NCBI GenBank assembly: GCA_013287145.1
Contig: JABDEI010000011.1
Location: forward strand, 1 to 33,880
Reading direction: 5' to 3'
DNA from: Chlamydiota bacterium
GTDB taxonomy: Bacteria; Chlamydiota; Chlamydiia; Chlamydiales; Parachlamydiaceae
Length of the DNA stretch: 33,880 nucleotides
Shown here piece after piece: positions 2,787 through 30,861 of the stretch. The notes beneath the pieces are model-generated. The model saw nothing but the letters and a program-made list of their open reading frames with translations, was not told the DNA's origin and made no database searches. Made by a program: the position numbers and the translations under genes. Numbering within the stretch: position 1 is the first letter of the stretch; each line of letters opens with the position of its first letter.

Positions 2787-4445
2787 ATGGGCGCGTTTGA
2801 CTATCTTGTCATAGTATTGACTCTTGTGCTCTTTAAACCCGTCAATAGCGCTATCTTGGGATACCCCTTAACTTTTTTGAAGCTATGGCGCGAATCATCA
2901 ATTTGCGAATCCTCGCCTCAACTTGAGTTTCAGTGGGATTTTACCACTTTAAAACGTTGGTTGACTCCTTTTGGAATTGTTTTGCTTAGCCTTTTTAGTC
3001 CGCAATTTTTAAGCTGGTCAGCTATCGATCCAGGCGGTTATCTGCGTCTTTTTTTTTTAGTAGCAGCCTTTGTTGTTAGCTGGAAAGCAATCACTCTTGA
3101 TGTCGATCTCGCTACTAATAAAGCTTTAATTATTGAAAGGATTTTGCTTTTTCTATCCCTAATCGGGATCTATTTTTATCCACCTTTTGCCTTGATGGTC
3201 TTGTTTATTGCCATTAACTGCTTTCGCGCTTGGACGCATCACCAACATCTGACGCTGCGCCTTCTTCAAATATTTTGCGCCTACCTGGCAGCATTCTTGT
3301 TGCTGAATATGATCTTTTCGTTACTTTCAATCACTTCTGCAAGGGTTACTTCCTCATCTCTCATCGTTTTATCGATGTTTGTGATCGTATCACACTATTT
3401 TGCCGCAGGGATTGGCAAAGCAAAACTCGGCGTGCATTGGTATTCATGGATCAAGGATAATAAGATCCACTACCTGGTCAGTTCCGCCTACCTTTGGGGC
3501 TGGATGCGGTTTTTACCTGAGAAGCGTGTATTATCTTTTCTTGGATTTTTAAAATACTTTGATCGTCCTATTCAAGCAGGCATATTTGTCATTGAATGCG
3601 GATCGATCCTTGCTTTATTCGATGTTCGGCTCTGTTTATTTATCTTAGCAGCTTTTGTGTTGTTGCATCTTTTCATTTTTCTTTTAGCGGGAATTCTCTT
3701 CTGGGAATCGATGTTTGTCGAATGCGTCTTTTTTGCAGCAATCTTTGCGTTGCCAGAACTGTATGTTCAGACAGTTTTTAATGTAACAAATGGCTCTTTA
3801 TTTGCTCTAGGGCAAATTCTTTTTAATATAAGCAGCGTTTTATGGAGGCCGACGGTACTAGCCTGGTGGGACACCCCTTTAGTTTGCCGCATTCATTGGA
3901 TTGTCATTGGAGTAAGCGGCAAGATCTATGGACTTTATAACAACTTTATGTCCCCGCAGGAGAGGCTCTTTGATAAAATCTATACTTATTCCCTTACAAA
4001 GGAAAAAATGATTACGGGCCATTTAGGAGAAGTATCTAAATTAAAATTACGGGATGCTATTGTAGCTTCACAGGGCAATCCTTTGATATTAGAACAGTTG
4101 ACTAGTTTCCATGGTCGATCGCGTCATGATCAGAAGCTGGAGGATTATCATGACACCAATTTGATTAGATTTTTTCAGAGCTTTAATGCAAAGAAAAGAA
4201 AGCAGGTATGCCCTGCATGGCTAAAAGCTCCCGGCGAGTTACTTTATTATTGGGGTCGTTTGGAGCCCTTTCGAGGACAAGAACCGGTGGCTTACATTCA
4301 AATTATTTTCCGTGAAGAATTCTATGATGGAGAGCATTTCCGCCTGATAAAGGAAAAACTCTTAAAGCAGCTTACGATCACGGAGCGCTGGAACAAATTT
4401 ACCACAGAGAGCACAGAGAGCTACAGGGAGAAGAAAGGTGAATGA
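2787..4445 (+). CDS. Polytopic membrane protein, HTTM / gamma-carboxylase-like
   Basis: This protein has 552 residues. Roughly the first 380 form about ten hydrophobic segments and the last 170 are soluble. The segment HYFAAGIGKAKLGVHWYSW and a later run with an acidic residue inside a helix (VIECGSILALF) followed by a helix with LLHLFIFLLAG resemble the HTTM domain found in vitamin K-dependent gamma-carboxylases and in bacterial relatives of unknown substrate. This is a family-level impression and the catalytic assignment is not supported. An ordinary multi-pass transporter-like protein remains possible. The last ~18 codons (from 4392) lie inside the left arm of a long inverted repeat, so the true ancestral C-terminus was probably different. 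The gene is convergent with the giant gene on the other strand. Confidence 0.5.
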   Translation: MGAFDYLVIVLTLVLFKPVNSAILGYPLTFLKLWRESSICESSPQLEFQWDFTTLKRWLTPFGIVLLSLFSPQFLSWSAIDPGGYLRLFFLVAAFVVSWKAITLDVDLATNKALIIERILLFLSLIGIYFYPPFALMVLFIAINCFRAWTHHQHLTLRLLQIFCAYLAAFLLLNMIFSLLSITSARVTSSSLIVLSMFVIVSHYFAAGIGKAKLGVHWYSWIKDNKIHYLVSSAYLWGWMRFLPEKRVLSFLGFLKYFDRPIQAGIFVIECGSILALFDVRLCLFILAAFVLLHLFIFLLAGILFWESMFVECVFFAAIFALPELYVQTVFNVTNGSLFALGQILFNISSVLWRPTVLAWWDTPLVCRIHWIVIGVSGKIYGLYNNFMSPQERLFDKIYTYSLTKEKMITGHLGEVSKLKLRDAIVASQGNPLILEQLTSFHGRSRHDQKLEDYHDTNLIRFFQSFNAKKRKQVCPAWLKAPGELLYYWGRLEPFRGQEPVAYIQIIFREEFYDGEHFRLIKEKLLKQLTITERWNKFTTESTESYREKKGE

Positions 4446-4538: not shown

Positions 4539-7500
4539 TTAAGCACGCTGTGAATACTGGATGAGCAAGTTTTTTGCAGTTTTAAAGAAGTAGGAATTTT
4601 CTGCCACTTGCCCTTGAGTTGGATAGTAAGCCAACACGTTATTGCGTATGAAGTCGCAAAATTCATCCAAAGCTTGAGGTCCATTTTTCTGATAATAGTC
4701 TTGCAGCCATTCATCGATGATTTTCTTCTCCTGAGGATTGTAATGCTGCTGACCGGCTAAGACTTTGGCTTCGATGATATAGCGAAGGGGCTCTAAGTTA
4801 TTCTTCATTTTTTGTTTGAGATCGGGATTGTTGACGGCAGTAAATGTATCTGATCGCAAATCGTACAATCCCACTTGCACTTGCGAATTCTGTGCTCCTT
4901 TTTTCTTTTGCACTTCGATATCTTCGTTGATAAGCTTTTTTTCACCGTCTTGGTCTTCTTTGCTTAATAATCTGACTTCCCAGCTGTTATCTCGAGGGTC
5001 AAATTTCACTTTTACGAAGTGTACAGGCTGCTGCAAAGGGTGATCAAAAGCCTTCAAAGGTTTTGCGACCACAGGAGTTCCATCAGGATTTGTTTTTCTT
5101 TCAAGTTTGCTTTTTTGCATGTTAGAACCAGACACGGTTTTATATTCCTGAATGAATTGGTCGACGTACAAAGGAAACCAGTTATCAGTGAACTTTAAAT
5201 TTTTTGAAAAAGCAGGATGGATGATTTCGTGCGCTGAAGAGACAAAGGTTTTTGGAGTTTCGGCTACATCAAGGCGGAACATTGAATAGTGGAAATAAGG
5301 CTCCATAGATGTTTTTCCTGCAACGGCATCTTCAATTTCGTCTAAGTTGTCTGCCACATACGTCAGGCTAATTCCTTTTTTCTTCCATTCTTCTCTTATT
5401 TTTTCATCTGCTTTTACTAATCCATCAAATCCGGATAAACTAGGATATACGACATTAGGATGAGTTTTTGGCTCTTCGGCATATTGACGCACTGCGAGTT
5501 TCTGTTGAACTTGCTGTTCTGCTTCTGTTTGGATGCGCACCTGCGTCTTAGTAGCTGAAGATACTTCAGCACGCACTTCGTCGGCAAAGTAGGCTTTAAA
5601 GCGTTCCTTATTGGCATCGGCAGCAAAGTCGTATTCTTCTCTTGAAAGGATTTTACCCGCTTCAGAAAGGTCGTCAGGGTTTGCATTGCAAAGAGCAAGT
5701 AAATCATTGCGTAGCTGCTGCAATTGCACCAGCGGGTCTTCTTTTAAATCAGCGCGTTTAAACTCTTCGCTTGATTTATTGCCAATTTTAGTGACAAAAA
5801 ATTGACGATATTTATTCATCAGGCGCTCTTCTTCGTCAGGTGATGCTGAAAGCATTTTTGCCCGGACGACATCGCGGACGATATCTTCGAGTTCATCTTT
5901 GGCCTTGCGAAGATTATTTTCAGCTTCAGAGATGCCTTTTTCTTTGATGGCATTGATTAAAATGCTTTCGAAGGCTAATGCCTCTTTCTCTGTCTTGGGC
6001 AAGTGTTTTTCTTGCCAGACGGCGACGAGTATATAGGCAAGTTGACTTTCACCCAAACCCCTCAACCGCCATACCGATTGCAAGAGATAATCCAAATCCA
6101 TCTTTTCTGCTATGCTGAAGACCCCTTTTGCGTAGTAATGCTGTGGAACGTCGGCGCCGCGGGCATAGCGTTCAGGCAGCCAGGTGACTCTTTTTTCTCT
6201 AGGGATGTCGCTTTCTCTTAAAGACATCAATTTGCCGTCTATTGTCTTGATAACCGGTACGCCGCCTTCATCATAATAAACTTTTGCTTTATTTGTCTGT
6301 GGAAGCAGTTCAACGGCTTTCTCATCGGAGCAATTTTGCACAATGCCTCCGGCATCGCAAATGAGATCGAAGTCGACAAGATGATTAAATAAATGCTGGA
6401 TTCTTTCGGGAGTATTTGCTGCAGTAATTTTATCCATTTCGTCTTTAGGACTATATGGAATGACGATGCCGTTTGGGTTGCCCTCTTGGATTAAACGGCG
6501 GTTATTACGCAGAAGTAAAAACAGTGTCCTGGTATCAGTACCGGCATCGCGGGCTTGCTCGATAGTCTTTTTGTTGCATCGGTGGAAAATAAATTGGTTT
6601 AAGGTGCCTGAGAATCCGCCAAAAGCAGAAAACATGGAGACGAATTGTTGCGAATTTTGTTCGATGAGTTCCCCATAAAGAGTGGGTTTATTTAAGAGAT
6701 TTTCCCTTAGGAAACGGAACAGTTTTTGTTCATCTTGAGTTAGCTGTTGCGACAGTCGTTGGCAATCGGCAAGCATCGGAGAACCTGTATTTGTTTTCTT
6801 TAACTCTTGTAGCGATTGCCCAAAAATATTTGCAAAAGTTTGTGCAGCCGCTGTTTTTTCATAGGCGATTTTTTCCTTTTCTACTTGCTTAACGGCATTT
6901 TGATGCAGCAAAGTAATGATGCTTTGCAGTTTTTCTGCAGCTACGCCCTGATGCAAGTAATCTTGCAGAATGTAGCACAAGTTTTCCAGCCTGTGGCCGA
7001 ATTGCGATCCCTCCCTCGGGACATCTTTTTCTTCGGTTGGCGTTGTCGTTTCTTTATCTTTCTTGGAGCGGATATAATCTTTGGAGTAAGTTGCCGCTAA
7101 AGTCGTTTTGAGAATCTCTGAGAGCAATCCCCTTAAGGTTGAGATAGCTTCTTCTTTGGGACTTTCATCGACAAATTTTGCGATTGCAGGCAGTTCCTTT
7201 TCGCCTTTTTTGCTCATGAGATATTCAATAAAATCGGCTCGATTTGCTTTAATGAACTCCTTTTGTTTTTCATCTGTTGCCAAGAGTGCAAGCCCTTGGT
7301 CTGAAGAGACAAAATGCTCAGCTAAAGCGCGCCTTTCTACAGTTTGTTCCTCCTCCGTCATATTCCCTTGTTGGTTGTTGCGAAGACCAATCTTGGGCGA
7401 TTGCAACATCTTATTGTACACTTCTAAGGTAACTTCAAGTTCATCCTCATTATATTTTTGTGCAGGACCTGTTGGGAAAATTGTTTTTTCTTTGGGATCC

Positions 7501-10500
7501 ATGAGTTTATCGACTTCGTCAGCAGTAACGACACCTTTTTCTTTGAGCAGATTGCGCACTTTTTTAAGCTCAGAGAGAGCTTCATTGATTTCTTGTAGTT
7601 TAGTGCCGGCAGTCCATTTCTTTTGATTGATTAATTCAAGATAAGAAGCTTCAAAGCATTGGAAGCTTTCGCGAGTGGCTAGAATGTACTGTCTATTTTC
7701 GATAGCACTTAAAAAACGGGCATAGAGACCCTTAGTTCTTTGTAAAGTTTCTTTATGGGAATAGCGCTCCCACTCGAAAGGAAAACCCTCTTGATTAAGA
7801 AGTTTTTTACTTTGCTTTAAGAGCAGATTTTTCATTGCCCCGTAAAGCGCCTGTGTTGAGATTACGATGGATAAATGCTCTCCATCGGCACGCAAAAGAG
7901 CAATCAGGGGCAGAATAACAGTTGTCTTGCCAGCACCCATGATCAGCTGCTTAATGCAATTTGGATTCTGAATCATCTCATGGATCACCGACACTTGTTT
8001 TTGTCGAAAGAGAATATTGCCTTCATATTCCATGACGAGGAATTCAGGATGTTTCCATGGGTCGTAAACGCGTTGTGCTTTTAATGTTTCAACAAATAAA
8101 GGCAGCATTTCTTTGCGATAGTCATCGGAACTCTTCATTAAATTCAAGATACTATGCGTCCGTGAAATCTGCTGAAGGCCTGTTTCGGCGATTAAAGAAT
8201 TTGTGATGAGTGCATTGAGGCGTTCGAGGTCGGATGGCGTCAGGTTGGCATTAAAATTATTCAGATCATTCAATCTATGTTGAAGGAATAAGTGCCTTAG
8301 ATGCTGCTTAGAAACTGATTTGGCTCCCATGCCGATTTTCTGAAATTCTTTTTTTAGACCAGCTCCAGGTATGCTTTCAGATTTATTGAGAATTTCATCG
8401 ATAGCTTGATCCAACTTCTGCGCTTGCACAGAAAGATTTTCCTTTTTTAAATTGAGCATATTTTCGATGTTGCCCAATTCTTTTTTTGAGTCGCCTTTCC
8501 ATTGATAGGTTTTATAATCATAGGATTCTAAGAAGCTGTCATAGTCTTCCAAAAGATCTTTACAAATTTGCTTGGAGATATGGGTGTGATTAGGATTATG
8601 TTCTGCGACGTGCTCTAGGACGCCCTTGAGCTCAGCGCCGATTTTTTCGCGATTCTCTTTTGTGTCTGCATCTTCGGCTTTAAAAAACTGACCGATTTCA
8701 TCGGGTGAAAGAAGGGTGGTCACGCCTTTTAATGCTAGGTGGGGCTCCGGACGATTTGATTGGCTACTATGTTGAGATTCGATTTTGTGGCTAGCCAGGT
8801 CAGCATCGGTGGAGATGAGATGATGGTGGCAGCACTCGGGTTGCTGCTCTTTTAGGCTTTGAACAGCTTCGGCACACCTTTCCAGCAATTTTTGAATTTC
8901 TGCAGGAGAAGTGTCTTGTCCGCCTATTGCTGAGAGGTTTTGAAATTCTTTGGGCAATTCATCCGATTGCCTTACGTCGATTGCAGCTTCCAGATAATTT
9001 CGCAATGTTTCAATGTAGTCATCTTCCGGAAGAGATCTAAGCCAAGTGCGCAGTTCTGCAAAGCTCCCCTTTTTCTGAATCTGTTCTTTGCGAAATTGAT
9101 GGAAAGAAGACAGTTTTTGCGAGACCTCTTTAAGAGCCTGTTCTTGAGAAGTTAGTTTGCTTTTGCGCATGACCTCATGCACTTTGGCAGCAAGAGCATC
9201 GTCTTTGGGAGAAAGAGCTTTGATTTTGCGTTGTCGTAAGGTATCTATTGTTGGAGCAGATGCAGGCCATAACTGCTCTTTGCGGTTTTGCAAGACTTGA
9301 TAAAAAGGATTAGAAACTTGGTCTTTAAGCCCTGGGGTGGGATTTGCAACAAATTCAGGCGTAGTGCTAGCAACCGTGCGCCAGAGATTTTTTTCATCTT
9401 CAGGGGATAACAAGAGCGCCTCTGGAATATTGCCGATGTTGCCTTTGCCAACCTCTTTAAGATAGTTCTGATAATGTGCTTGGATGGGGGGCAGCGGTGT
9501 AGGTTTTTCCGGATTTTGATTTTCTTGAGCGACTTTTGCAAGATGCAGAAGAAAAGCGCTAAAGCGTACATCTGATAATGCAGTTTGAGAAGCTTCGCAA
9601 TAAGTAAAAAGCTTAGAAAGAGCCTCTTTTTCTTCTTCGGCGTAGCCATTTTTATTCACCGCAAGAGAAAGTTGTTCCATGGCTTTGTTGAATTGATTGG
9701 TGTGCAGATAAAGCTGTGCAAGATAAAAGTGAGGAGCTACGCCATGTTTATGATGAGAAGAAGAGTCTAAGCTAAGCTGTGTGCCGATTTGGTTGGCTTC
9801 AAAGACATAAAGCTCAGAAGGCGCCATTCTATCAAAAATGGGTGGTTTGTGGAGTAAATTGCTGTTGGGGATATTGCGCAGGCGATTCCAAACGGCTTTG
9901 AACAGGCGTCCAATGCTGTTGGGAATTGCTGTTTCCGGATCGATTGGAATGAGTGGACGCGAAGCTAAAAGGGCTTTTTTCTCGCCCAATTTGTTTTCGA
10001 CGATGATGGCATTGCGCAGGCTGCCAAGGGCAGGCAAGTGCTTAGCGGCACTTAAGTGATATCCTTCTAAACCCTCTTTTAAGCAATTCCACTGCTTGGT
10101 TTTTTCGTCGTAGTGAAATCTTAGATCGTGTTCAGGAAATTCCACTTGGCTTGGGACGCCATTTTTTCCCCAAATAAGTGTATTTTTGGAGTGAGCAAAT
10201 TCGCGGAAGACACCCCATTCTTTACTTCTATTGCTCCAGGAATTGATTAACTGCAAATTCTTGGATGAAGAATTTGAGCGCATATCGCGAAGAGATTCCA
10301 GATTTTGAGTTCCCTTTTTGGCTGAGAGTTGGCCCACAAAAGCAAGTTCACGGTTTTTGTCTAAGACGAGCATTTGAGTTCTATCTTTGGTGTTGATCCA
10401 CCAGCTTTTTTCAACCAAGCTCGAGGGAATGAACATCTCAAGTCTTTTTTTAAAAAGTCCTAGCAAGGTTCGGATGATCGTGAGAGGCCCTGGCTTTCCC

Positions 10501-13500
10501 CCCCTCATAGCGCTTTGGACGATATCGCCGAACGAACTTTCAAATTTTGTATGATCGCTGTGAGGGGTATATTGAAACCATGCCGTTTTTCCATCGACTG
10601 TTTCTTCCTTTTGTAATATCAATTCGCCTTGGCTAGGAGCAAGAGCGCGGTATTTTTTTCCTTCAGAGGTAAACTGGTAGCATAAAAATCCTTGGCTTTG
10701 CCCTTTTTCCGGCGGAATGAGTATGATTTCGGTCAAAGGAGAAAAGTTTGCAGGAAAACACTTGAGAAAGGTTGGATTGGTCTTGATACTGGCTGGAAGG
10801 TAAGCGGAAGCCTTGCCATTTTTAAAGACGATGCCTTTATCTATCTCCACTTGAAAATCGCCATTGGAGATTAAGGGAAATTCTCCCGACCACTCCTTGC
10901 TATTAAGATTGGTGTGAAAACACTCTGCTATTACCTCCGACAAAGTTTCGTTGCGAAAAGAGATGTCGGTTTGCAGTCTTGCACGCAGCATGGGCGTCCA
11001 TTTATCAAGGACTCGCCGTACTTGATGTTCGCGCAAGGGATGAAAGGCTTTAGTTTCGGGTTCGGAAATGGCGTGGATGAGCCGAGCTTTGAATAGATCG
11101 CCCTGCTGCTGGTCTGTCAGGTTTTGCCTGTATAGGGAAAGGCAAGCTAAGTATCCATAGATTTGTCGGCGTGTATCCAGACGGTCTTCTGGCGCTTTTT
11201 TTAAAAGCAAGCGCAGATCAGCTTCATAATCTTTACTGAGATTGGGTGCTTTAGAGTCCCAAAAAGCGACGTGGGATTTTATCTGAGCTGCGAGATAAGT
11301 CAAATTCGCTACGACTTCGAAGTTCTGTTCATTTTCAAATAAGGTGATGTTTCGATCAAAGAATTCTTGCAGGTAGGGAAGAAAGTCAGGGTTTTTGAGT
11401 TCCTCCTTCAAAGCTAAAGAAAGTGTGGAAGCGCTTTTGTAGTGCTCTGAATCTCCGAAGAGATCGCCCCAGTCCTTACTTTTAGAGCTTGCGCTAAAAA
11501 GAATGCGGCGCAAGTCTTCTTGATGCTGCGGCTCATGTAACAGATGTCGATTTTCCCAATAATATCCCAAGCAATCCTCGAGTTTGGTCAAACGCGTAGA
11601 ATCGACTAAAAGGCGATCACGCGAAGCCTCTTCGGTTAAGCCTTGAATGCGGGTAGGTTCATCGATTTGAACATTTCGAAGCTGCCCTCCTTTTTCCTCT
11701 ATACGCCACTCTTTTTTAGAACCTTTAAAATGAGCTGCTAGAATCGATTCTGAGCGAGATGTCCTAGGAAGGCCTTGCTCCAAGAGCTTATTCGGAATGG
11801 GCGTGAATTTAGAATAATTTGAGCCGCTGTGATAGGATACAATACTGCGCTCTGGGGTAGAGACCAATGAAAATTTGATGTGGTCATTAGCTCTAATCCT
11901 CAAGAGAGCTGGGTTTGTTTCGCGTTTAAAATAGGGGGATTGCCCATCCCATTGGAAGGTGGACATTTTCTCATTATTGTAAAGTGTTTGCTGAGTGGTT
12001 TTTATTGATTGTCCATACATCTCACTTCGCCAATCCATCAAAGACGCTGCAAGGGCATTGCAGAAGCGATAATGAATGAAAGGTTTGGCTAAGAGGTTTT
12101 TATCCCCTAAATCGGTGGCAATTTCAATTCTTTTTTTTCTTGCAGCAACTTCATTTTGAGATAATGGAACATGGTAAGAAGGTGGAGTGAGAGCTGCAAC
12201 TTCATTTGAAACAACGATTTCTTTTCCATTTTTTTCAAGATAAGCCCTTCTTTCTTGCATGTAGTCGCCAAAAGTTTTCTCGATCACACCATGATGATCA
12301 GGGGTACCCAAAGCTACCATGCGAAAATCGCAGCCGTTATCAAAAGAAAGCGCTCTTTTATTTTTGCATTTGTTTTGATAGCTAAAAATTTCATCACCTC
12401 TTTCTCTATCTTGAGGATGACTAAGATGGGTCCATGAAATTGTGTCTTGGGCAGAAAAGCGATAGTCGCAGTAAGTGGGATCTTCCAACCTTAACAAGCG
12501 GTCCAATACCACATAAAGAGAGTTAAAGCCCAAGGCAATTTCCGGGGGAAAAGGAGTCGCAAGCTTTTGCTTCACCACGCTTTCAAAGAGGTAGATTTGC
12601 ATTTTCCCCAAGAGCTCGCTGCAGGCATTGCGTTGATTGGAATCCACTTTTTGCCAGAAGTCATCTTGGGCATCGGGATCTTGTGGAATTTGCAGGTTAA
12701 GATAGACTTTATTTACGTGAAAAAGGAGCTTGGAGTAGTCTTTTTGTTCATAGAGTCCTTTAGCATGAGCTAGGCATTGATTAAGTGTTTCTGTTACGCT
12801 TGACGGATTTTTTAATCCATCAAGAGAAGGTGGCTCGCTCCAGGTTGTTTTAATAGAGGTGATATCTTGAATTGTTTGGGCTTGCAGGTTATCGGGAAGT
12901 GGATGCAATTTCAGCTGTTCAGATAGAGTGACTTGAGGAAAGGATATCGGCGATTTATTCCTTAAGTTCATTTGCCAGCGCTGATTGCGCTCATTGTCAA
13001 TTTCAGAAAGCCTTTGCTGCAGTCTTTGCATTACCGGAGCGATCTGTTTTACTTCATCGGGGCTTAGGATATTTTCTTCCAGCATCTTGCTGATAGTCCG
13101 TGAAACTTTTTCCATTCCGTCTTTCAAGAGAATGAAGTTGGTTTCATTGTCTTTTAAGTTAAATTTGACTTGATCGTAGAATCTAGAAAGAGCAGCTAAG
13201 CGCATGCGCAACTTTAAGCGTTTTAGTTCGGGGCCTGAATCGAAGACGCCTAAATACGCTAATAATGGCTTTGCCAAGGTATTGTTTTTGCGCAAAATAA
13301 TATAATCTTCAGAAAGAGCGGATGGGACCGAGCGTTTAGCGGCGATAGGCCCTTCAGCAAGGGATTTTTTCCATACATTGCTGGTTTTGACTTCATTTTG
13401 CTTAGTTTCGTCTTTGTTCGGCAAAAAATTTAATCTCTGGATATCGAATTGGGTCTTTAGCTCGTCGAGGGTGAGGTTTTCAAAGGTAACGGCGCGTTCT

Positions 13501-14495
13501 TTTTTGATGGCGCGGTCGGTGGTCAAACCTTTGCTTAAGATGTTTTCAGGATCTGTCTCTAGAATGTGGAGCTGATATGAGTCGGCATGGCGCGTGACGC
13601 GTATGAGCTGGTTGCTAAGCTCATCGGTAAAAAAGAGAGGTAGAAGCGCCTCACCGCCAGCTTTTAAAGATGTGATATTTTTCCAGGCTTGTGCAAGTTG
13701 ATCTTCGCCTCTTTTTTTGAGTTTTTGCATCTCATTTTCATATTTTTTTCGTTCTGCTACCGACCTTGGATTGCGGGCATCTTGCAGCCTTGCAAGCAGC
13801 TGTTTGATTTCTTTATAACGCGGAATAAGATCTTCCCAAGCTTTGCTAGATTTTTCACAAGACGCTAGCTTTGCGATAATCGGCTTGGTATCGACGCTAA
13901 ATCCTTTGCCTTCTTGAGCGACAACTTTGCGGACAGCTTTTATCCTCTCCGACTGCGGCATGTCATGAAGATCGGGAATTCCTTTGCTATAAGGGTGGTT
14001 CAGCAAAAGAGCAAAGAGCTTTTGTTCCTGCGCTTGTTTTTTTTCGCCAGGTCCAAAAAGAAGATGAGAGCACCAGGAAAAAAACTCGAGAAAGCGATCT
14101 AGGGGCGAGCGCGAAGCTACGCGTCGTAGCGATCTTCCTAAGGGAACGGAGGTGGGATCATTAAGTTTTACTTGGGGATGAAAGGCAAAGGCTGCCGGCT
14201 GATCAAATTTAACATCAAGAGTCTCAAGAAGTTTCGATCCGGCGAAAAGATGGATTTTATTGTCTTCGGTCACTTCCACTTTAGAGATGCTGCGCAGATT
14301 GACATCTTTTCCCTTTGTTTTGCAAAACTCTTCGAGAGCGGCATTGACTAATGCTTCAAAGCGGATTCTTTCTTGGGGAGGCAGAACTTTGATTTTGCCT
14401 TTTTTAACGAGTTGATCCGGTTTGGGATTGACTTCGATGCGCAGAGATTGCTCTCTTCCACTAGAATCTTGATAAGTGCCGATAAACCGAAGCAT
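4539..14495 (-). CDS. Giant DUF3638/DUF3645-type protein with degenerate helicase core
   Basis: A single open frame of 3318 codons. Residues 1 to ~2150 are largely unassigned; they include a TPR-like helical stretch (PHFYLAQLYLHTNQFNKAME, near residue 1600), charged helical segments and a His-rich patch (CCHHHL). Residues ~2160-2830 hold an SF2-like ATPase core. It has a motif I loop QLIMGAGKTT (M2186, K2190, T2191), a Walker B-like DEVD (D2326-D2329), a motif V-like R-G-A-D (R2779) and a motif VI-like QSVWRLRGLGESQ (Q2806, R2810, R2812). These match the layout I know from the very large DUF3638/DUF3645 proteins of fungi and other eukaryotes (MGEGKS loop, DE-x-D, RGTDL, Q-x-x-x-R-x-R-x-L-G). 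The C-terminal ~490 residues are mostly helical. No signal peptide or membrane segment is obvious. The ATG at 14495 has an AAGGA site five bases upstream. Function is unknown; an ATP-dependent nucleic-acid or protein remodelling role is inference. Confidence 0.85.
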   Translation of the reverse strand: MLRFIGTYQDSSGREQSLRIEVNPKPDQLVKKGKIKVLPPQERIRFEALVNAALEEFCKTKGKDVNLRSISKVEVTEDNKIHLFAGSKLLETLDVKFDQPAAFAFHPQVKLNDPTSVPLGRSLRRVASRSPLDRFLEFFSWCSHLLFGPGEKKQAQEQKLFALLLNHPYSKGIPDLHDMPQSERIKAVRKVVAQEGKGFSVDTKPIIAKLASCEKSSKAWEDLIPRYKEIKQLLARLQDARNPRSVAERKKYENEMQKLKKRGEDQLAQAWKNITSLKAGGEALLPLFFTDELSNQLIRVTRHADSYQLHILETDPENILSKGLTTDRAIKKERAVTFENLTLDELKTQFDIQRLNFLPNKDETKQNEVKTSNVWKKSLAEGPIAAKRSVPSALSEDYIILRKNNTLAKPLLAYLGVFDSGPELKRLKLRMRLAALSRFYDQVKFNLKDNETNFILLKDGMEKVSRTISKMLEENILSPDEVKQIAPVMQRLQQRLSEIDNERNQRWQMNLRNKSPISFPQVTLSEQLKLHPLPDNLQAQTIQDITSIKTTWSEPPSLDGLKNPSSVTETLNQCLAHAKGLYEQKDYSKLLFHVNKVYLNLQIPQDPDAQDDFWQKVDSNQRNACSELLGKMQIYLFESVVKQKLATPFPPEIALGFNSLYVVLDRLLRLEDPTYCDYRFSAQDTISWTHLSHPQDRERGDEIFSYQNKCKNKRALSFDNGCDFRMVALGTPDHHGVIEKTFGDYMQERRAYLEKNGKEIVVSNEVAALTPPSYHVPLSQNEVAARKKRIEIATDLGDKNLLAKPFIHYRFCNALAASLMDWRSEMYGQSIKTTQQTLYNNEKMSTFQWDGQSPYFKRETNPALLRIRANDHIKFSLVSTPERSIVSYHSGSNYSKFTPIPNKLLEQGLPRTSRSESILAAHFKGSKKEWRIEEKGGQLRNVQIDEPTRIQGLTEEASRDRLLVDSTRLTKLEDCLGYYWENRHLLHEPQHQEDLRRILFSASSKSKDWGDLFGDSEHYKSASTLSLALKEELKNPDFLPYLQEFFDRNITLFENEQNFEVVANLTYLAAQIKSHVAFWDSKAPNLSKDYEADLRLLLKKAPEDRLDTRRQIYGYLACLSLYRQNLTDQQQGDLFKARLIHAISEPETKAFHPLREHQVRRVLDKWTPMLRARLQTDISFRNETLSEVIAECFHTNLNSKEWSGEFPLISNGDFQVEIDKGIVFKNGKASAYLPASIKTNPTFLKCFPANFSPLTEIILIPPEKGQSQGFLCYQFTSEGKKYRALAPSQGELILQKEETVDGKTAWFQYTPHSDHTKFESSFGDIVQSAMRGGKPGPLTIIRTLLGLFKKRLEMFIPSSLVEKSWWINTKDRTQMLVLDKNRELAFVGQLSAKKGTQNLESLRDMRSNSSSKNLQLINSWSNRSKEWGVFREFAHSKNTLIWGKNGVPSQVEFPEHDLRFHYDEKTKQWNCLKEGLEGYHLSAAKHLPALGSLRNAIIVENKLGEKKALLASRPLIPIDPETAIPNSIGRLFKAVWNRLRNIPNSNLLHKPPIFDRMAPSELYVFEANQIGTQLSLDSSSHHKHGVAPHFYLAQLYLHTNQFNKAMEQLSLAVNKNGYAEEEKEALSKLFTYCEASQTALSDVRFSAFLLHLAKVAQENQNPEKPTPLPPIQAHYQNYLKEVGKGNIGNIPEALLLSPEDEKNLWRTVASTTPEFVANPTPGLKDQVSNPFYQVLQNRKEQLWPASAPTIDTLRQRKIKALSPKDDALAAKVHEVMRKSKLTSQEQALKEVSQKLSSFHQFRKEQIQKKGSFAELRTWLRSLPEDDYIETLRNYLEAAIDVRQSDELPKEFQNLSAIGGQDTSPAEIQKLLERCAEAVQSLKEQQPECCHHHLISTDADLASHKIESQHSSQSNRPEPHLALKGVTTLLSPDEIGQFFKAEDADTKENREKIGAELKGVLEHVAEHNPNHTHISKQICKDLLEDYDSFLESYDYKTYQWKGDSKKELGNIENMLNLKKENLSVQAQKLDQAIDEILNKSESIPGAGLKKEFQKIGMGAKSVSKQHLRHLFLQHRLNDLNNFNANLTPSDLERLNALITNSLIAETGLQQISRTHSILNLMKSSDDYRKEMLPLFVETLKAQRVYDPWKHPEFLVMEYEGNILFRQKQVSVIHEMIQNPNCIKQLIMGAGKTTVILPLIALLRADGEHLSIVISTQALYGAMKNLLLKQSKKLLNQEGFPFEWERYSHKETLQRTKGLYARFLSAIENRQYILATRESFQCFEASYLELINQKKWTAGTKLQEINEALSELKKVRNLLKEKGVVTADEVDKLMDPKEKTIFPTGPAQKYNEDELEVTLEVYNKMLQSPKIGLRNNQQGNMTEEEQTVERRALAEHFVSSDQGLALLATDEKQKEFIKANRADFIEYLMSKKGEKELPAIAKFVDESPKEEAISTLRGLLSEILKTTLAATYSKDYIRSKKDKETTTPTEEKDVPREGSQFGHRLENLCYILQDYLHQGVAAEKLQSIITLLHQNAVKQVEKEKIAYEKTAAAQTFANIFGQSLQELKKTNTGSPMLADCQRLSQQLTQDEQKLFRFLRENLLNKPTLYGELIEQNSQQFVSMFSAFGGFSGTLNQFIFHRCNKKTIEQARDAGTDTRTLFLLLRNNRRLIQEGNPNGIVIPYSPKDEMDKITAANTPERIQHLFNHLVDFDLICDAGGIVQNCSDEKAVELLPQTNKAKVYYDEGGVPVIKTIDGKLMSLRESDIPREKRVTWLPERYARGADVPQHYYAKGVFSIAEKMDLDYLLQSVWRLRGLGESQLAYILVAVWQEKHLPKTEKEALAFESILINAIKEKGISEAENNLRKAKDELEDIVRDVVRAKMLSASPDEEERLMNKYRQFFVTKIGNKSSEEFKRADLKEDPLVQLQQLRNDLLALCNANPDDLSEAGKILSREEYDFAADANKERFKAYFADEVRAEVSSATKTQVRIQTEAEQQVQQKLAVRQYAEEPKTHPNVVYPSLSGFDGLVKADEKIREEWKKKGISLTYVADNLDEIEDAVAGKTSMEPYFHYSMFRLDVAETPKTFVSSAHEIIHPAFSKNLKFTDNWFPLYVDQFIQEYKTVSGSNMQKSKLERKTNPDGTPVVAKPLKAFDHPLQQPVHFVKVKFDPRDNSWEVRLLSKEDQDGEKKLINEDIEVQKKKGAQNSQVQVGLYDLRSDTFTAVNNPDLKQKMKNNLEPLRYIIEAKVLAGQQHYNPQEKKIIDEWLQDYYQKNGPQALDEFCDFIRNNVLAYYPTQGQVAENSYFFKTAKNLLIQYSQRA

Positions 14496-14625
14496 AATAA
14501 TCCTTTATAACAACTTTTGCTAAAAATAATTATAACAATTTATTTAATTTCGATGTTATTTAGTTTTTTTATAGATTTTTACAGGGTTATCATAGCTTAT
14601 CGAGTGACATTTCGTAAATCGGAGC

Positions 14626-17436: not shown

Positions 17437-17778
17437 TTACTGAATACCTAATACAAACTTTATAATTACATCGATTTCCTGCATTTCTTTAATTGAAAGA
17501 CTACCTATTTTCATTCCTAAACGCAACTTATCAATAGATCTCATTTGATCCAGCATGATTTTTCCTTCAACATCAGAATGATCTTTTATGGCATATTCAA
17601 ATGAATATACTTTTTTTAATTTTGATGTAATTGGTGCAACAATAATGCGCGTAGAATTTTCATTCAAAATATCATGCGAGCAAACTAAAGAAGGTCGTGT
17701 TTTTTGAATTTCTGTGGCTTTGGAAGGGTCAAAATCAACCCAAAAAATATCTCCTCTTCTAATAATCGTTTGTTTCAT
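17437..17778 (-). CDS. mazF: MazF/PemK-type toxin (endoribonuclease)
   Basis: This PemK/MazF-family toxin has 113 residues, the usual length. The opening RRGDIFWVDFDP carries the conserved R-G-D-I/V-x-x-V-x-F/L-D-P strand. RPSLVCSHDILN corresponds to the RP-x-x-V segment, and IIVAPITSK carries the conserved P-x-T/S catalytic region. KIMLDQMRSIDK is the V-x-x-DQ-x-R-x-x-D motif that contacts RNA and antitoxin. MazF enzymes cut single-stranded RNA at short sequences; the specificity cannot be read from the sequence. The start overlaps the end of the antitoxin gene by 20 bases, the usual antitoxin-first arrangement with translational coupling. Nothing indicates inactivation. Confidence 0.93.
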   Translation of the reverse strand: MKQTIIRRGDIFWVDFDPSKATEIQKTRPSLVCSHDILNENSTRIIVAPITSKLKKVYSFEYAIKDHSDVEGKIMLDQMRSIDKLRLGMKIGSLSIKEMQEIDVIIKFVLGIQ

Positions 17779-21812: not shown

Positions 21813-22041
21813 TTGTCTTTAGGCCCAAAGGCCAACGTATGTATAGCCTAGGCCGCAGCGAATGCGAAGGCCTAGGAGCGAAGGCCAAAAAGCAAAGCCC
21901 TAAGAAAGGTGAAAACCTAACAACCAAAGATTTTGTCTTTAGGCCCAAAGGGCCGACGTATGTATAGCCTAGGCCGCAGCGAATGCGAAGGCCTAGGAAG
22001 AAGATCAACGAGATATTGAGGCCTGAAAGGCCGACACAAAA
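21813..22041. repeat. Left REP-like array of the IS200-like element
   Basis: Two ~65-bp repeats (about 21813-21877 and 21931-21999) each contain GTCTTTAGGCCCAAAG, CGTATGTATAGCCTAGG and CGCAGCGAATGCGAAGGCC. They are followed by a short third unit AGGCCTGAAAGGCCGACAC at 22019-22041. All three share an AGGCC-N4-GGCC hairpin followed by (G/A)AC. The same units recur inverted on the other side of the transposase gene. Confidence 0.93.
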
Positions 22042-22054
22042 GAGGATTATACCT

Positions 22055-22507
22055 ATGCCACAATCTTTATCCAATGTGCTTATTCATTTTGTTTTTAGCA
22101 CAAAAGAACGCTATCCTTTCATTCAAAATGATGTTGAAGATAAACTTTATCAATACATTACAGGAATTTGTCATGCTTTAAAGTGTCCTCTCCATCAAAT
22201 TGGAGGAGTATCAGACCATGTTCACATTTTACTATCTCTTTCACGTAATATTGCAATAAGCGATCTTATCGGCGATATTAAAGCAGGATCATCGCAATGG
22301 ATAAAAAAACAGGGACAAAGTTATCGCAATTTTGCTTGGCAAAGCGGTTATGGAGGTTTTTCGATAGGAAAATCAGGTTTTGATAATGCCGTTCGATATA
22401 TTGCTAATCAGAAAAAGCATCACACAACAATACCGTTTCAAGAAGAGTACTTGGCATTATTACAAAAATATGGCGTAGAATATGATGAAAGATATTTGTG
22501 GGATTAA
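22055..22507 (+). CDS. IS200-like / REP-associated tyrosine (Y1) HUH transposase
   Basis: This protein has 150 residues, the normal length for a Y1 transposase TnpA. The HUH metal-binding motif is GVSDHVHILLSL (H55 and H57), and the single catalytic tyrosine is Y115 in AVRYIANQKKHH. Such enzymes cut and join single-stranded DNA at hairpins near the element ends and leave no target-site duplication. The gene is complete, with no frameshift and no tnpB partner. It is enclosed by a 23-bp inverted repeat with one mismatch (22019-22041 and 22513-22535) and then by larger REP-like hairpins in mirror-image order. This is closer to a RAYT with its REP/BIME sequences than to a simple insertion sequence. 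An AGAGG site precedes the ATG by nine bases. Confidence 0.93.
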   Translation: MPQSLSNVLIHFVFSTKERYPFIQNDVEDKLYQYITGICHALKCPLHQIGGVSDHVHILLSLSRNIAISDLIGDIKAGSSQWIKKQGQSYRNFAWQSGYGGFSIGKSGFDNAVRYIANQKKHHTTIPFQEEYLALLQKYGVEYDERYLWD

Positions 22508-22768: not shown

Positions 22769-24157
22769 TTAGGGGTTTTTAAAAATCTGATAGCCGAGCG
22801 CGCCTGATCGATTGGCGTAATTGACAAACTCCTGCTTTTTTGCAGCATCGCTATTATCATCAACCGGAGGACAGGGTGTATTGTCTCTTATGGCCATAAG
22901 CATTTTGCCAAGGATATTTTTGCCTGTTCCATCATAATCATCTGACCAGTAATCATCTCTTTTTTTCTGATTATGTTCGAGCAAATAAGCGCCCTTGGTA
23001 TCATCTAGTAGTTGTCGCAATTCAGGGTTTTGCTGAAATTTCGCATTGAGAACTTCCCACATGACAGGATCGCGCGCTCCTGTTAGCCATCCTTGGGCAA
23101 AAACCTTTTTGTATTTGTTATCTAAGTCCCTGCGCAATTTAAATGCCGCTTCGCCATCACAAGTAAAAAACTTTTTCAGATCAGGATCGTTTAGCATATC
23201 TTTTCGATTATTTTGCTGGGCCGCCAAGTTAAACTTTCGCCATTGAAAGGCAGCTTCGGAACAGCGGAAACTTTGTCCAAAAACGTTAATGCCTTGAAGA
23301 CAAAGAGCAAAATTTCCTAAGAATTCAGTGGGACCTACTTGATAAAAACAGACAACTTTGTCGCCCTTGGCATTGATCGGTTTTTGGGCAATAGCCTGAA
23401 CTTGGCTTCTGAGTGGATTAACAGTTTGAGATGCGGGTTGTGAACTCGATGAGGTAGGCATCAAGGGCAGAAGATGTTTCTTGATATGATTATCAGCTTT
23501 ATCTTGTCCCCAACCACCCGGTTGATTAATCTTACTATTGATCAAAGCTTCAAGGCTATGCCGTGGATTATCTGTTTTCATGGCTGCGTCAAAGAGTTGC
23601 AACAAAACATCTTTTTGACTTAAATGTCCTCCTTGAGCGGGATTCATGTACGCACCCATTTTAAGGTCTATCTCTTTGGAAAAATTGTCGCGCAAAAGAA
23701 AAAGGTCTGTTTTCTTTTTGACTTCCGAACCGATTACCTGAGCAAGGTCTGTAGCAATTTGTTGAATAAAAATAGATCTTTCCAGTCTTTTGATGTCGAT
23801 TTTTTTTGTGGATATGCCGAAGAAATCGCCAATGGCAAGAAAGACTTTTCCTAGGCCCAAGAAAGACTTTTTAAAAGTTTGGCGTTTGCTCTCGATGATC
23901 GTATTAATCGCTTCCATATCGTTGATGAAATCACTTTTTTCGGTTTGCGGAGGAACTACGATTTGATCTTCTTTCAGTGCTTGATTAAATTTTCTTGTGA
24001 TGGTGGAAAGATGGGTATGGGAGCCTTTTTGTCCGGCGGTAATCAAATGATCTTGATTGAGAGAGAGGTAGCGTTTGCCTTCGAAGGTCTTGCTGCCCCA
24101 ATGTTTATCGAGAGGAACAGCATGCAGAGGTTTAAAATCAACATTAATACGCGTCAT
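22769..24157 (-). CDS. NADAR-domain protein with ~270-residue N-terminal extension
   Basis: This protein has 462 residues from the ATG at 24157, which has GAGG a few bases upstream; a TTG at 24169 would add four residues. The C-terminal part (about residues 271-425) is a NADAR (YbiA-like) domain. It has FYQVGPTEFLGNF, RCSEAAFQWRKF with the conserved acidic residue E301, the helix VMWEVLNAKFQQNPELRQLL, and the closing DDYWSDDYDGTGKNILGK and MLMAIRD. NADAR proteins are N-glycosidases acting on ADP-ribosyl or riboflavin-intermediate substrates; some reverse guanine ADP-ribosylation. The N-terminal ~270 residues are helical and charged with one hydrophobic patch (SFLGLGKVFLAIGDFFGI) and match no family I recognise. 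Stand-alone NADAR proteins are ~160-180 residues, so the extension is unusual. The gene lies 63 bases after murI, same strand, next to the transposase element. Confidence 0.88.
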   Translation of the reverse strand: MTRINVDFKPLHAVPLDKHWGSKTFEGKRYLSLNQDHLITAGQKGSHTHLSTITRKFNQALKEDQIVVPPQTEKSDFINDMEAINTIIESKRQTFKKSFLGLGKVFLAIGDFFGISTKKIDIKRLERSIFIQQIATDLAQVIGSEVKKKTDLFLLRDNFSKEIDLKMGAYMNPAQGGHLSQKDVLLQLFDAAMKTDNPRHSLEALINSKINQPGGWGQDKADNHIKKHLLPLMPTSSSSQPASQTVNPLRSQVQAIAQKPINAKGDKVVCFYQVGPTEFLGNFALCLQGINVFGQSFRCSEAAFQWRKFNLAAQQNNRKDMLNDPDLKKFFTCDGEAAFKLRRDLDNKYKKVFAQGWLTGARDPVMWEVLNAKFQQNPELRQLLDDTKGAYLLEHNQKKRDDYWSDDYDGTGKNILGKMLMAIRDNTPCPPVDDNSDAAKKQEFVNYANRSGALGYQIFKNP

Positions 24158-24220
24158 AAAAAACCTCAAATAAAAACTTTTATCTTTATAATAGCATAGT
24201 TGAAATTATGCTCCCAATAA

Positions 24221-25081: not shown

Positions 25082-25792
25082 CTAGGGAATTTGAAGTTTT
25101 TGACCTACAATGATGCGGTCGTTAGCAAGACCATTGAGATCTTTGATCGCTTTGACTGTAGTTTGATGCATCCTGGCAATTTTTTCTAAACTGTCGCCGT
25201 TTTTCACGCGATAGAGTTTGGAGCTGTCTGAAAAGCTAGTTTTATCATTGGGATTAACAGCTAAGGGCATTTGCATAGCATCGACTAAAGAACGCAAAGC
25301 AGCCTGCATATTATCCAAGCTTTGATTTTGCGCTTCGATGATTTTTTCCAAATCTGCAAGCTTTTGCTTGTATTGGGCTAAAGCAGCCGTGGTATCATTG
25401 GCATGCGATTTCAATTGGCGCAAGTCCGCAACAAGTCCTTTTGTTGTGGCATCTAAAGTAACGATTTTTTCTTCTGTGCTCTGTGAATTACCCTTAAGCA
25501 GGTCTTTATGCGCTTGACTGGAATCGGTGATCTGCTGACGCAACGAATCCATGGTCAGCTCCTGATTATTGAGCTTCTCTTCAAATGTTCGGATTTCATG
25601 TTCATGATTGCTGACTTCATGCCGAATATCATCGACGCTATCGCGCATCTCCCGCAGCATCGTCGCAGCATCTTCTTCTGCTGCATAGCGTCTGGGAGCT
25701 GCAAAAACAGCTTGTGACGCCAGGATGCCCGCTGCAAAAAGCAGCAGGGGCATTCTGGCTAATAAACTTGAAAACAATTTGCGATAACTCAT
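25082..25792 (-). CDS. Periplasmic coiled-coil protein with C-terminal LysM domain
   Basis: This protein has 236 residues: a signal sequence (about residues 1-31, ending SQAVFA), a long helical coiled-coil region (residues ~40-165, for example HEHEIRTFEEKLNNQELTMD) and a C-terminal LysM domain (residues ~193-236, YRVKNGDSLEKIARMH through IIVGQKLQIP) that should bind peptidoglycan glycans. It follows pal by ten bases, the place occupied by cpoB/ybgF in proteobacterial tol-pal clusters. It has the coiled-coil N-terminal half of that protein but LysM instead of TPRs. The likely role is to tie the Tol-Pal system to peptidoglycan at division. This is inference from context and domain layout. It is not CpoB itself. 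Confidence 0.85.
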   Translation of the reverse strand: MSYRKLFSSLLARMPLLLFAAGILASQAVFAAPRRYAAEEDAATMLREMRDSVDDIRHEVSNHEHEIRTFEEKLNNQELTMDSLRQQITDSSQAHKDLLKGNSQSTEEKIVTLDATTKGLVADLRQLKSHANDTTAALAQYKQKLADLEKIIEAQNQSLDNMQAALRSLVDAMQMPLAVNPNDKTSFSDSSKLYRVKNGDSLEKIARMHQTTVKAIKDLNGLANDRIIVGQKLQIP

Positions 25793-25802
25793 AGCAATAC
25801 GA

Positions 25803-26528
25803 TTAACGCTGATAAACTTTAAACTCTACCCGGCGGTTTTGCGACCAGGCTTCTTCGTGGTGCTCAAGAACAAGAGGACGTTCTTTTCCATAAGAGATCG
25901 TAAAGATATTATCAGGATTTACACCTTCGCTGATGAGCATATTGCGGATACCGTTGCTGCGGCGAGCTCCTAGAGCTAAATTATAAGCCTCAGGACCTCT
26001 TTCATCGGCATGTCCTTCTGCGAAGATATACATATTAGGATGTTGTTTGAGGTACTCAGCCACATTGCGGGCGATGTCCAGATTTCGCTGACCTTTGACT
26101 AGATTGCTGTTGTATTCGAAGTAGATGTTTTGAAAAATATTAGCCAAGCCGGGAATAGTGCTAGGATCTCTGAAAGCCTGTATTCCTGGGATGGAGCTGC
26201 CCGGATCGCCGGGAGTTTCTCTTGGTGGAGGAGCTACGGACTCTAGCATCGCAAGTTCATTGGGATTTGATTGATCCTGCATTGGAATAAAATCGCTTTC
26301 CGGTGCAGCAGCATAATCATCGGCAAGGGGGGAATAAAAAGCATCGCGATTTGCGACTGCGCGTGAATCGCCGTGTTTTCCACCAAGGGTGCGAAAACCG
26401 CGATTTACATGGCGTCCTGCTGATTTAGTATCGTCCCAGACTTCGTTGCGGTTGCGGTTGCAACTTGACAATGCAACAAAGGAAACAACAAACAGACTCG
26501 CTGTCAGAAAAAATGTTGCGAATTTCAT
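25803..26528 (-). CDS. pal: Peptidoglycan-associated lipoprotein
   Basis: This lipoprotein has 241 residues. The signal peptide ends in a lipobox, ALSSC, with the lipidated cysteine at C23. A proline- and acid-rich linker follows to about residue 120, and then an OmpA-like peptidoglycan-binding domain: NIYFEYNSN, a helix with LKQHPNMYIFAEGHADERG carrying the DAP-contacting D-E-R region, ALGARRSNGIRNMLISEGV, and the closing SQNRRVEFKV. It anchors the outer membrane to peptidoglycan and cycles with TolB. The linker is longer than that of E. coli Pal (total 173 residues). It is separated from tolB by 577 bases containing a 300-bp palindrome, whereas all other tol genes here are within 20 bases of each other, so pal probably has its own promoter. 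No convincing promoter was found. Confidence 0.95.
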   Translation of the reverse strand: MKFATFFLTASLFVVSFVALSSCNRNRNEVWDDTKSAGRHVNRGFRTLGGKHGDSRAVANRDAFYSPLADDYAAAPESDFIPMQDQSNPNELAMLESVAPPPRETPGDPGSSIPGIQAFRDPSTIPGLANIFQNIYFEYNSNLVKGQRNLDIARNVAEYLKQHPNMYIFAEGHADERGPEAYNLALGARRSNGIRNMLISEGVNPDNIFTISYGKERPLVLEHHEEAWSQNRRVEFKVYQR

Positions 26529-27105
26529 AAAAACCTCTAAATAGGCTAAGATTTTATTTTTGAATGATAGCTTTTACTAAGAAAGTGGATAGTAGCATAA
26601 TTGGACAATTGATGAAAGATACAAGTGATCGAATCGAAACATAATTATCTTAAGTTCTTATTGCTAAGAGCATCTACAAAAAAAGAATTCAGAAAAAAAG
26701 TAACATATTGAGCATGATCCCAAGATCCTCACTTCTTCACTTCGGCGTGGGGCATAAATGTCCATGAGTTCAGTCGCCCTTCGCATCCGCTCCGGGCTCT
26801 CCCACTATGTTACCCTGTCCCACAGTTCCTTCGCTAATCGCTCAGTCACTATGGGCTGTAATCGGGCCGCCCTAGAAGGGCTCTAAGGCATAATTGACGA
26901 TTTTTTGTCCTAAGTCCGGAGTGAAAACGTAGGACGACCCGACCATAGCCCATAGTGACTGAGCGATTAGCGAAGGAACTGTGGGACACGCAAACAAAGG
27001 GTTAGAGCCCGGAGAGGAGCGAAGGGCGACTGAATGCATGGACGTTTATACAACTCCCATCATCCTTCTGTTTTTCCTCCCTCACCTTCCTCTTTCATCC
27101 TTCTT
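26529..27105. other. 577-base gap between tolB and pal
   Basis: It holds the 300-bp palindromic element (26752-27051). On the pal side is about 220 bases of AT-rich DNA (26529-26751) that should contain the pal promoter and leader. On the other side is a pyrimidine-rich stretch directly after the tolB stop (CTCCCTCACCTTCCTC on the plus strand). No open reading frame in it looks coding: those present run through the palindrome arms and have no family resemblance or ribosome-binding site. Confidence 0.7.
26752..27051. repeat. 300-bp near-complete palindromic element
   Basis: The outer arms (about 26752-26800 and 27004-27051) pair imperfectly, sharing TCAGTCGCCCTTCGC and CTCCGGGCTCT. The inner arms (26816-26857 and 26947-26988) are exact reverse complements over 42 bases. 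The 89-base loop contains further small stems: GCCCTAGAAGGGC, and GTCCTA pairing with TAGGAC. There is no transposase gene and no obvious target duplication. The element sits within the Tol-Pal cluster between tolB and pal. Confidence 0.9.
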
Positions 27106-28479
27106 TTACGTCCGTGGTTCCCAATTAGGAAAATGCTTTTCACCGACACCAGAGCTGATTTTTGTCGCTTCCGGTTGATTGAGGTTGATGAGAAAGAGGT
27201 CGCTAGCATCGGCATCGGTAGAGTTGAAAATCAAATGAAGGCTGTTGGGTGCCCAGGTAGGGTTTTCTTTATTGCCGGCACCTTGCGTTACCTGCCTCTC
27301 AGCGTTAGAAGCAAAGTCATAAATCCAAATTTGCCTGACGCCCTTAGTTAGCGAGCAATAGGCAATTTTTGTACCATCGGGCGACCATTCGGGAGCAGAA
27401 CTTTCTTTATTGTGTTTGGTGATGAGTTTTGCAGAAACAGTCTTTGGGGGAGTGCCAGGAGAAGGAACATCCATCACATAGATGCGTGGAGAGCCATCTT
27501 TATTAGAAACGAAGGCGATTTTTTTGCCATCGGGACTAAAGGTTGGAGTTGCTTGGGTAGCTTGATGAGTGGCAAAAATTTGTTGGGGCTTGCCGACAGC
27601 GCCGGCTTCAACGCTGAAGGGCTGCAGAAAAAGATCGGGATTGCCGGTGATATCGCAAATCAAAGCCACTTTATCGCGCTGACGCGAGATAGCCGGCATC
27701 AGTTGGTTGCCGCGCAAGAGGGAGAAGCGCTGAGGTTTGCCGTCTTTTAGTGAAGCCATATAAATTTTTGGCTGGCCGGTTTGGTATGAGACATAAAAGA
27801 AACTGCCGGGAGAGCTGCCAACTTTTGGAGGAAGATAAACAGGAGTCACGCAATAGCCATCATTGCGCGTCAATTGACGAGCGTTGCCGCCGTCGTAGTC
27901 TGATTCCCAAACTTCTGAAGTCCATTGTCGGCTATTTGTCCCCTCTTGTTTTTTCCATGTGAACAAAATATGGGTTGAAGCGATGCCGTCGGTACCAAAG
28001 AGGACTTTATGGATCATATCTGCAACTTGATGGATTTGACGTCTATCTTTACTTAAAGTACCTGTTAGAGAAAGGCCACCCACATTTTTTATTGAGCCGC
28101 TATTGACCGAAAGCATCTGGACAGAAAGGGTCTTATTTTTTACGCGCGCTTTGATCACATAGAAAACGTTTAGGTTTTTCCAAGCTTGCGCATTGGGTGA
28201 TTGTTCAAAGGATTCTTTGGCAGCCTGAGCATCGCGATCTGTTGTATGTGGAACAGGATAAGTCATGGCATTATGGCTGAGATCAAAGAGCAGGACGCTT
28301 TCAAGTTTGTTCAAATATTCAGCATCAAAGCCAGAATTATCATTATAGAATTTGGCAAGATAGAGCGGCAGGAGTTGGCTTTCGGTAGCCAAACGCACGA
28401 CGATAGGATCACTTTCCTCTGCAAAGAGAGTTAGAGGCAGGATTAAAAGAGTCATGAGAAAAAAGCGCACAATAGACAT
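27106..28479 (-). CDS. tolB: Tol-Pal system beta-propeller protein TolB
   Basis: This periplasmic protein has 457 residues. The signal sequence is about residues 1-20, ending LTLFA. An N-terminal alpha/beta domain follows, then a six-bladed propeller whose blades show the S/A-P-D-G-x-K/R-I-A signature: TPTFSPDGKKIAFVSN, APEWSPDGTKIAYCS and NPTWAPNSLHLIFNS. TolB connects TolA with Pal and peptidoglycan during outer-membrane constriction. It is about 25 residues longer than the E. coli protein. It follows the TolA-like gene by 18 bases, but unlike in most genomes it is not immediately followed by pal. Chlamydiaceae carry a tolB in the same relative position, in my recollection. Confidence 0.95.
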   Translation of the reverse strand: MSIVRFFLMTLLILPLTLFAEESDPIVVRLATESQLLPLYLAKFYNDNSGFDAEYLNKLESVLLFDLSHNAMTYPVPHTTDRDAQAAKESFEQSPNAQAWKNLNVFYVIKARVKNKTLSVQMLSVNSGSIKNVGGLSLTGTLSKDRRQIHQVADMIHKVLFGTDGIASTHILFTWKKQEGTNSRQWTSEVWESDYDGGNARQLTRNDGYCVTPVYLPPKVGSSPGSFFYVSYQTGQPKIYMASLKDGKPQRFSLLRGNQLMPAISRQRDKVALICDITGNPDLFLQPFSVEAGAVGKPQQIFATHQATQATPTFSPDGKKIAFVSNKDGSPRIYVMDVPSPGTPPKTVSAKLITKHNKESSAPEWSPDGTKIAYCSLTKGVRQIWIYDFASNAERQVTQGAGNKENPTWAPNSLHLIFNSTDADASDLFLINLNQPEATKISSGVGEKHFPNWEPRT

Positions 28480-28497
28480 AATAATAACCTTATATGA

Positions 28498-29520: not shown

Positions 29521-29528
29521 TTGGCGCT

Positions 29529-30700: not shown

Positions 30701-30861
30701 TTAGGAATCCTTTATAATTAAAGACCTTTTATATTAAAACTTTAATACAACCAAAGGCAAAAGATAATTATGCAATTGAAAGGGGGCTTTATCACTGTTT
30801 GTAAAGATTCACGCCTCGGCGAGATGCATAATCGATCGTCTAGGTATTTGTCAAGCAAAGG

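Follow-up and report, generated by a model that had tools for sequence, protein, structure and literature searches.

We propose, tentatively, that the giant gene at positions 4539-14495 (minus strand) of a 33,880-nucleotide stretch of contig JABDEI010000011.1 (the window) may encode a soluble ATP-driven translocase of the DUF3638/DUF3645 family, contained in a single gene, one of several paralogs in its genome and probably directed at the host. Three results carry this proposal: the protein has an intact superfamily 2 (SF2) motor; it belongs to an old and expanded family of the Chlamydiota; and most of its DUF3638 relatives, together with many stand-alone chlamydial proteins, contain an N-terminal His-Asn-Gln-Cys domain, which is new. 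The source is a metagenome-assembled genome (MAG) of a Parachlamydiaceae-type member of the Chlamydiota (2.17 Mb, 57% complete). DUF3638 is an uncharacterized domain that occurs in giant proteins of eukaryotes and of giant viruses and is scarcely mentioned in the literature. It has been described as widespread among eukaryotic proteins (PMC12615304), and of the expanded microsporidian gene families picked for having a signal peptide or transmembrane segments, one is a DUF3638 family (PMC5423893); neither paper assigns it a function.

The giant gene and its motor

The gene is an intact open reading frame with an ATG start, preceded directly by an AAAGGA ribosome-binding site and free of internal stops, which bears out the uninterrupted 10-kb, 3318-residue gene of a first-pass annotation. 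Neither a signal peptide nor a transmembrane stretch was seen in the 3318-residue protein. The G+C content is 0.4285, versus 0.432 in the remaining window. A sister paralog on contig C30 is 61% identical over its full length, with dN/dS of about 0.12-0.16 (calculated only from blocks with unsaturated dS), and the gene is under purifying selection, strongest in the motor, where identity to the sister is 73-74% versus 47-67% in the preceding blocks. The features, all on the minus strand, are as follows.

4539-14495, minus strand: whole gene, 3318 residues plus stop (open reading frame, composition, selection)
14501-14506, minus strand: AAAGGA ribosome-binding site (sequence)
13071-13763, minus strand: remnant of the AnkH/LegA15-like cysteine-protease-like domain, about residues 245-475, approximate limits (family alignment)
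9789-10901, minus strand: beta-rich domain, residues 1199-1569 (AlphaFold model)
8316-9767, minus strand: helical solenoid-like region, residues 1577-2060 (model)
5796-8318, minus strand: SF2 motor made of two RecA lobes and an insert, residues 2060-2900 (alignment, model, fold search)
7449-8069, minus strand: Pfam DUF3638, residues 2143-2349 (E = 1.1e-25)
7920-7943, minus strand: motif I/Walker A, IMGAGKTT, residues 2185-2192 (motif and conservation)
7509-7520, minus strand: motif II, DEVD, residues 2326-2329 (motif and conservation)
6981-7055, minus strand: DUF3645-equivalent columns, residues 2481-2505, sub-threshold in the window copy (aligned relatives)
6597-6617, minus strand: motif III-like GFSGTLN, residues 2627-2633 (conservation)
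6150-6161, minus strand: motif V, RGAD, residues 2779-2782 (conservation)
6051-6080, minus strand: motif VI with arginine finger, QSVWRLRGLG, residues 2806-2815 (conservation)
4542-5543, minus strand: conserved C-terminal domain with near-invariant G3248 and W3263, residues 2985-3318 (conservation)

SF2 motifs I, II, III, V and VI are present in order. Four of them had been recognized before and lie at the residues then reported (GAGKTT, 2187-2192; DEVD, 2326-2329; RGAD, 2779-2782; QxxxRxRxLG, 2806-2815), while the motif III-like GFSGTLN is a fifth that the first-pass annotation did not list. Its description of the core as degenerate, however, was wrong, because the catalytic motifs are invariant or nearly so: among 38 homologs, Q2167, G2189, K2190, D2326, E2327 and T2631 are 100% conserved and Q2806, R2810 and R2812 97% conserved, and a 78-row alignment agrees for the catalytic residues of all five motifs. 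The AlphaFold model of residues 2060-3010 (predicted local distance difference test 89.8, predicted template modeling score 0.89) confidently places two RecA-like lobes and, separating motif II from motif III, a large insert, as the earlier suggestion of inserted domains had it. The beta-rich domain and the helical solenoid-like region gave no significant structural match, and the confidence of their models is moderate.

The best fold matches of the motor in a viral library are DUF3638 proteins of the Klosneuvirus group (E to 8e-26, template modeling (TM) score 0.60). These giant-virus relatives, from Hokovirus, Fadolivirus, Hyperionvirus and Harvfovirus and known from the structure library alone, have the DUF3638 profile, motor fold and giant size in common with the window protein, at an identity to its motor of about 12-16% over the fold alignment. 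When the motor was compared with the PDB using Foldseek, the top eight matches were all SecA (E = 2.4e-6 to 2.8e-4). Both proteins have an SF2 core and seem to share an insert between motifs II and III and a long helix following motif VI, but the motor's likeness to SecA is confined to this layout, and it comes with a low TM score and without sequence-profile support. SecA identity by sequence was ruled out (profile probability 2%, no Pfam SecA match); the window protein is not a SecA, and the true SecA of the source genome is a separate gene (G000:C123).

A cysteine-protease-like domain at the N-terminus of most relatives

The first 2150 residues had been reported to match nothing recognizable. 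This holds for the databases, but comparison within the family reveals what appears to be an AnkH/LegA15-type domain that the window copy has lost. The domain came to light when the N-terminal 900 residues of relatives were aligned; the signature there reads GGW..GHA..YE ... YN.G.G...H ... D.Y ... Q..G.C.W. As a guard against circularity, the columns were scored on 31 rows left out of signature discovery; there N, Y, C, three G and two His were among the top columns at 0.74-0.84 identity (median 0.16), and the Q column reached 0.61. The H-N-Q-C tetrad is intact in 47 of the 74 domain-bearing relatives, non-chlamydial ones included, with a Q-to-C spacing that is invariably 5 and an H-to-N spacing of about 20. 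Among stand-alone domain proteins of 350-660 residues, N and C are kept in 15/15 and H and Q in 14/15, and the domain is also found joined to leucine-rich repeats (LRR) or ankyrin (Ank) repeats. Such stand-alone proteins (loci L323-L336) are spread across many chlamydial genomes, L324 being a tandem pair and L335 carrying leucine-rich repeats.

For the Legionella effector LegA15, a triad H268-N290-C361 with a conserved Q356 has been proposed (PMC9757750), and AnkH homologs conserve the motifs rGHa, D/NRg and GNCSWANV on a clan CE-like fold (PMC6712400). The relatives' domain has the same His-Asn-Gln-Cys order and the same Q-to-C spacing of 5 (Q356-C361) as AnkH/LegA15 (AnkD), and its GHA, N.G and GTCSW resemble the three AnkH motifs. 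By motif, then, the domain would be of the AnkH/LegA15 type; the resemblance is strong, and it was drawn from the published motifs, not from direct alignment. Within its His-Asn segment, one stand-alone protein matched the AnkD/LegA15 model of NCBIfam with E = 8e-4, far under the model cut-off. It should be said that the catalytic activity of the Legionella AnkH/LegA15 proteins is itself disputed. An OTU reading of the G-x-C-x-W motif was dropped because the conserved His precedes the Cys, an arrangement that does not fit the OTU family.

Unlike AnkH/LegA15, the window copy retains only a remnant of the domain, with all four of His, Asn, Gln and Cys gone. The tetrad is kept by 0/14 members of its clade, which are not independent of one another, while the motor motifs are intact there. 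A single ancestral loss of the tetrad would fit this pattern. Elsewhere, the source genome encodes a C48-type (Ulp1-like) protease of 524 residues (L289, G000:C42; E = 1e-23).

An old and expanded family in the Chlamydiota

DUF3638 (PF12340) matches the 3318-residue protein with 90.7 bits (E = 1.1e-25, model positions 3-201 of 225) against a Pfam gathering cut-off of 31 bits, and no other Pfam domain, DUF3645 and SecA included, rises above its cut-off there. The resemblance to DUF3638/DUF3645 proteins noted earlier is thus upheld for the first domain; the second stays below threshold in the window copy but is present in the equivalent columns of relatives. Eleven chlamydial genomes have DUF3645 (PF12359) above cut-off; in each of the three cases mapped it lies within a DUF3638 protein, aligned to window residues 2481-2505, so that it follows DUF3638 as it does in the proteins of fungi, protists and the Klosneuvirus group. 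The chlamydial proteins differ from their fungal, protist and giant-viral counterparts in lacking DUF6606 (PF20255), a profile proposed for checking in the first-pass annotation, of which we found none above cut-off among 234 Chlamydiota genomes.

The isolated transfer considered earlier gives way to a different picture: DUF3638 in the Chlamydiota is an old, expanded family. The profile matches 111/234 genomes, 95/234 of them above cut-off. There are six loci in the source genome, and copies per genome, each about 10 kb long, reach at least 11, these numbers being lower bounds in fragmented MAGs. The paralogs are deeply divergent, at about 20-25% identity. Weak matches in Chlamydia itself were rejected, as they proved to be Mfd. 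Outside the phylum, the scan of genome contigs found carriers in a few MAGs labelled Oligoflexia, Myxococcales, Deltaproteobacteria and Zetaproteobacteria. A FastTree phylogeny of 93 motor domains places ten non-chlamydial rows (some of which share genomes) in one supported group nested within chlamydial rows, scatters the source genome's own paralogs across distant clades and puts the window protein in the 14-row clade described above; because the tree is unrooted and its branches are long, these placements are tentative. Scanning genome contigs with P0001 alone as a whole-protein query gave no match, since the relatives are too divergent, and searches of plasmids and scans of viral contigs for the family gave none either. 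Members of this large and undescribed family of giant motor proteins occur not just in amoeba-type chlamydiae but also in fungi, protists and giant viruses, and DUF3638 connects three intracellular groups: chlamydiae, microsporidia and giant viruses.

Several loci deserve mention in their own right. Giant DUF3638 genes form adjacent tandem pairs at L058 and L110. Another family gene of the source genome (L037, G000:C63, 7060-13302) looks broken, its N-terminal and middle part stopping at 12546 and its motor resuming in a separate frame at 12832, close to the contig end. A MAG titled Verrucomicrobia SZAS-7 (L125, L139, L150, L152) has contigs in common with G040, a genome of the window's order, and its record title is therefore probably wrong.

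Proposed mechanism, alternatives and neighboring genes

We can present the following outline of how the protein might work. The C-terminal SF2 motor, with its residues intact, would bind and hydrolyze ATP and so move a polymer; the beta-rich domain and the helical solenoid would form the scaffold that this polymer passes or goes through. The polymer would be a polypeptide more readily than a nucleic acid because of the SecA-like layout, with its insert between motifs II and III and the long helix past motif VI. In most relatives the motor is coupled to the AnkH/LegA15-type cysteine-protease-like domain, while the window copy may act as motor and scaffold only, because its N-terminal domain has lost the active site. 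Action would most likely take place in the protist host cell, following putative type III secretion. A host-directed role is suggested by the distribution among environmental chlamydiae, the expansion in copy number, the effector-type domain and its association with LRR and ankyrin repeats, and also by the parallel with the expanded microsporidian DUF3638 family (PMC5423893). An intact SF2 motor combined with an effector-type cysteine domain in most copies offers a testable mechanism for the DUF3638 family.

Several observations weigh against this proposal. The TM score of the motor to SecA is 0.25-0.33 by query length and 0.33/0.40 at best, and profile-profile comparison (hhalign) with chlamydial SF2 families gave SecA (34 chlamydial sequences) 2%, versus 88% for DEAD-box, 77% for SNF2 and 47% for PriA. 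A published study describes LegA15 as a GTPase rather than a protease (PMC9757750); the N-terminal domain found no support against chlamydial C48 protease profiles and has no PDB or Pfam match; and Oligoflexia-type MAGs, for which no host is known, are carriers outside the Chlamydiota. The most specific version, a single-chain machine in which an AnkH-type cysteine hydrolase works together with a polypeptide motor like that of SecA, and which is delivered to protists, is related to the giant-virus, fungal and microsporidian proteins and in the window clade has a dead hydrolase and is kept for its motor, strikes us as unlikely when taken as a whole.

Somewhat unlikely, too, is a nucleic-acid translocase or helicase that would act inside the bacterium in DNA or RNA remodeling or in defense. 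It would account for the SF2 motifs, for the similarity to DEAD-box and SNF2 profiles across motifs I-II and for weaker fold matches to DinG, MDA5 and RIG-I. However, the family is absent from Chlamydia and concentrated in environmental, protist-associated lineages, an effector-type domain is fused to the relatives, and we found neither a PADLOC defense-system match nor a conserved neighbor gene or operon partner across the DUF3638 loci, which also speaks against the anti-phage role once suggested for this gene. An effector of the ubiquitin pathway we consider unlikely; in this reading the family would consist of proteases acting on ubiquitin or ubiquitin-like proteins, and the motor would unfold or extract modified host proteins. 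Viral homologs do carry the name 'ubiquitinyl hydrolase 1', but probably by automatic annotation; and while AnkH-type domains resemble clan CE, home of the Ulp1-like proteases, and Parachlamydiaceae have expanded ubiquitination-related families (PMC4209131), neither C48 profiles nor a Pfam protease match support the idea, and the window copy, its active site lost, could not itself be the protease. Recent transfer from a eukaryotic host, with no settled bacterial role, is very improbable: DUF3638 is indeed widespread in eukaryotic proteins (PMC12615304) and present in giant viruses, but the phylum-wide spread, the divergence of the paralogs (about 20-25% identity) and their dispersal over the tree in the source genome, the host-like composition and the purifying selection all oppose it.

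As for the surroundings, a tRNA-Ser gene adjoins the giant gene, yet tRNA-linked integration was rejected because 37 of the 40 other loci searched have neither tRNA nor tmRNA. Also adjoining is an open reading frame of 552 residues (2787-4445, plus strand) with no Pfam or family-model match. Farther along the window are genes for a PemK/MazF-type toxin (17437-17778, minus strand), an IS200-type Y1 transposase (21983-22507, plus strand) and a 466-residue protein (22769-24169, minus strand) that ends in a NADAR domain, its first ~290 residues having no Pfam match. Genes for LysM, OmpA/Pal, TolB-like propeller and DsbD proteins occupy 25082-33132, in the order of the Chlamydia Tol-Pal region.
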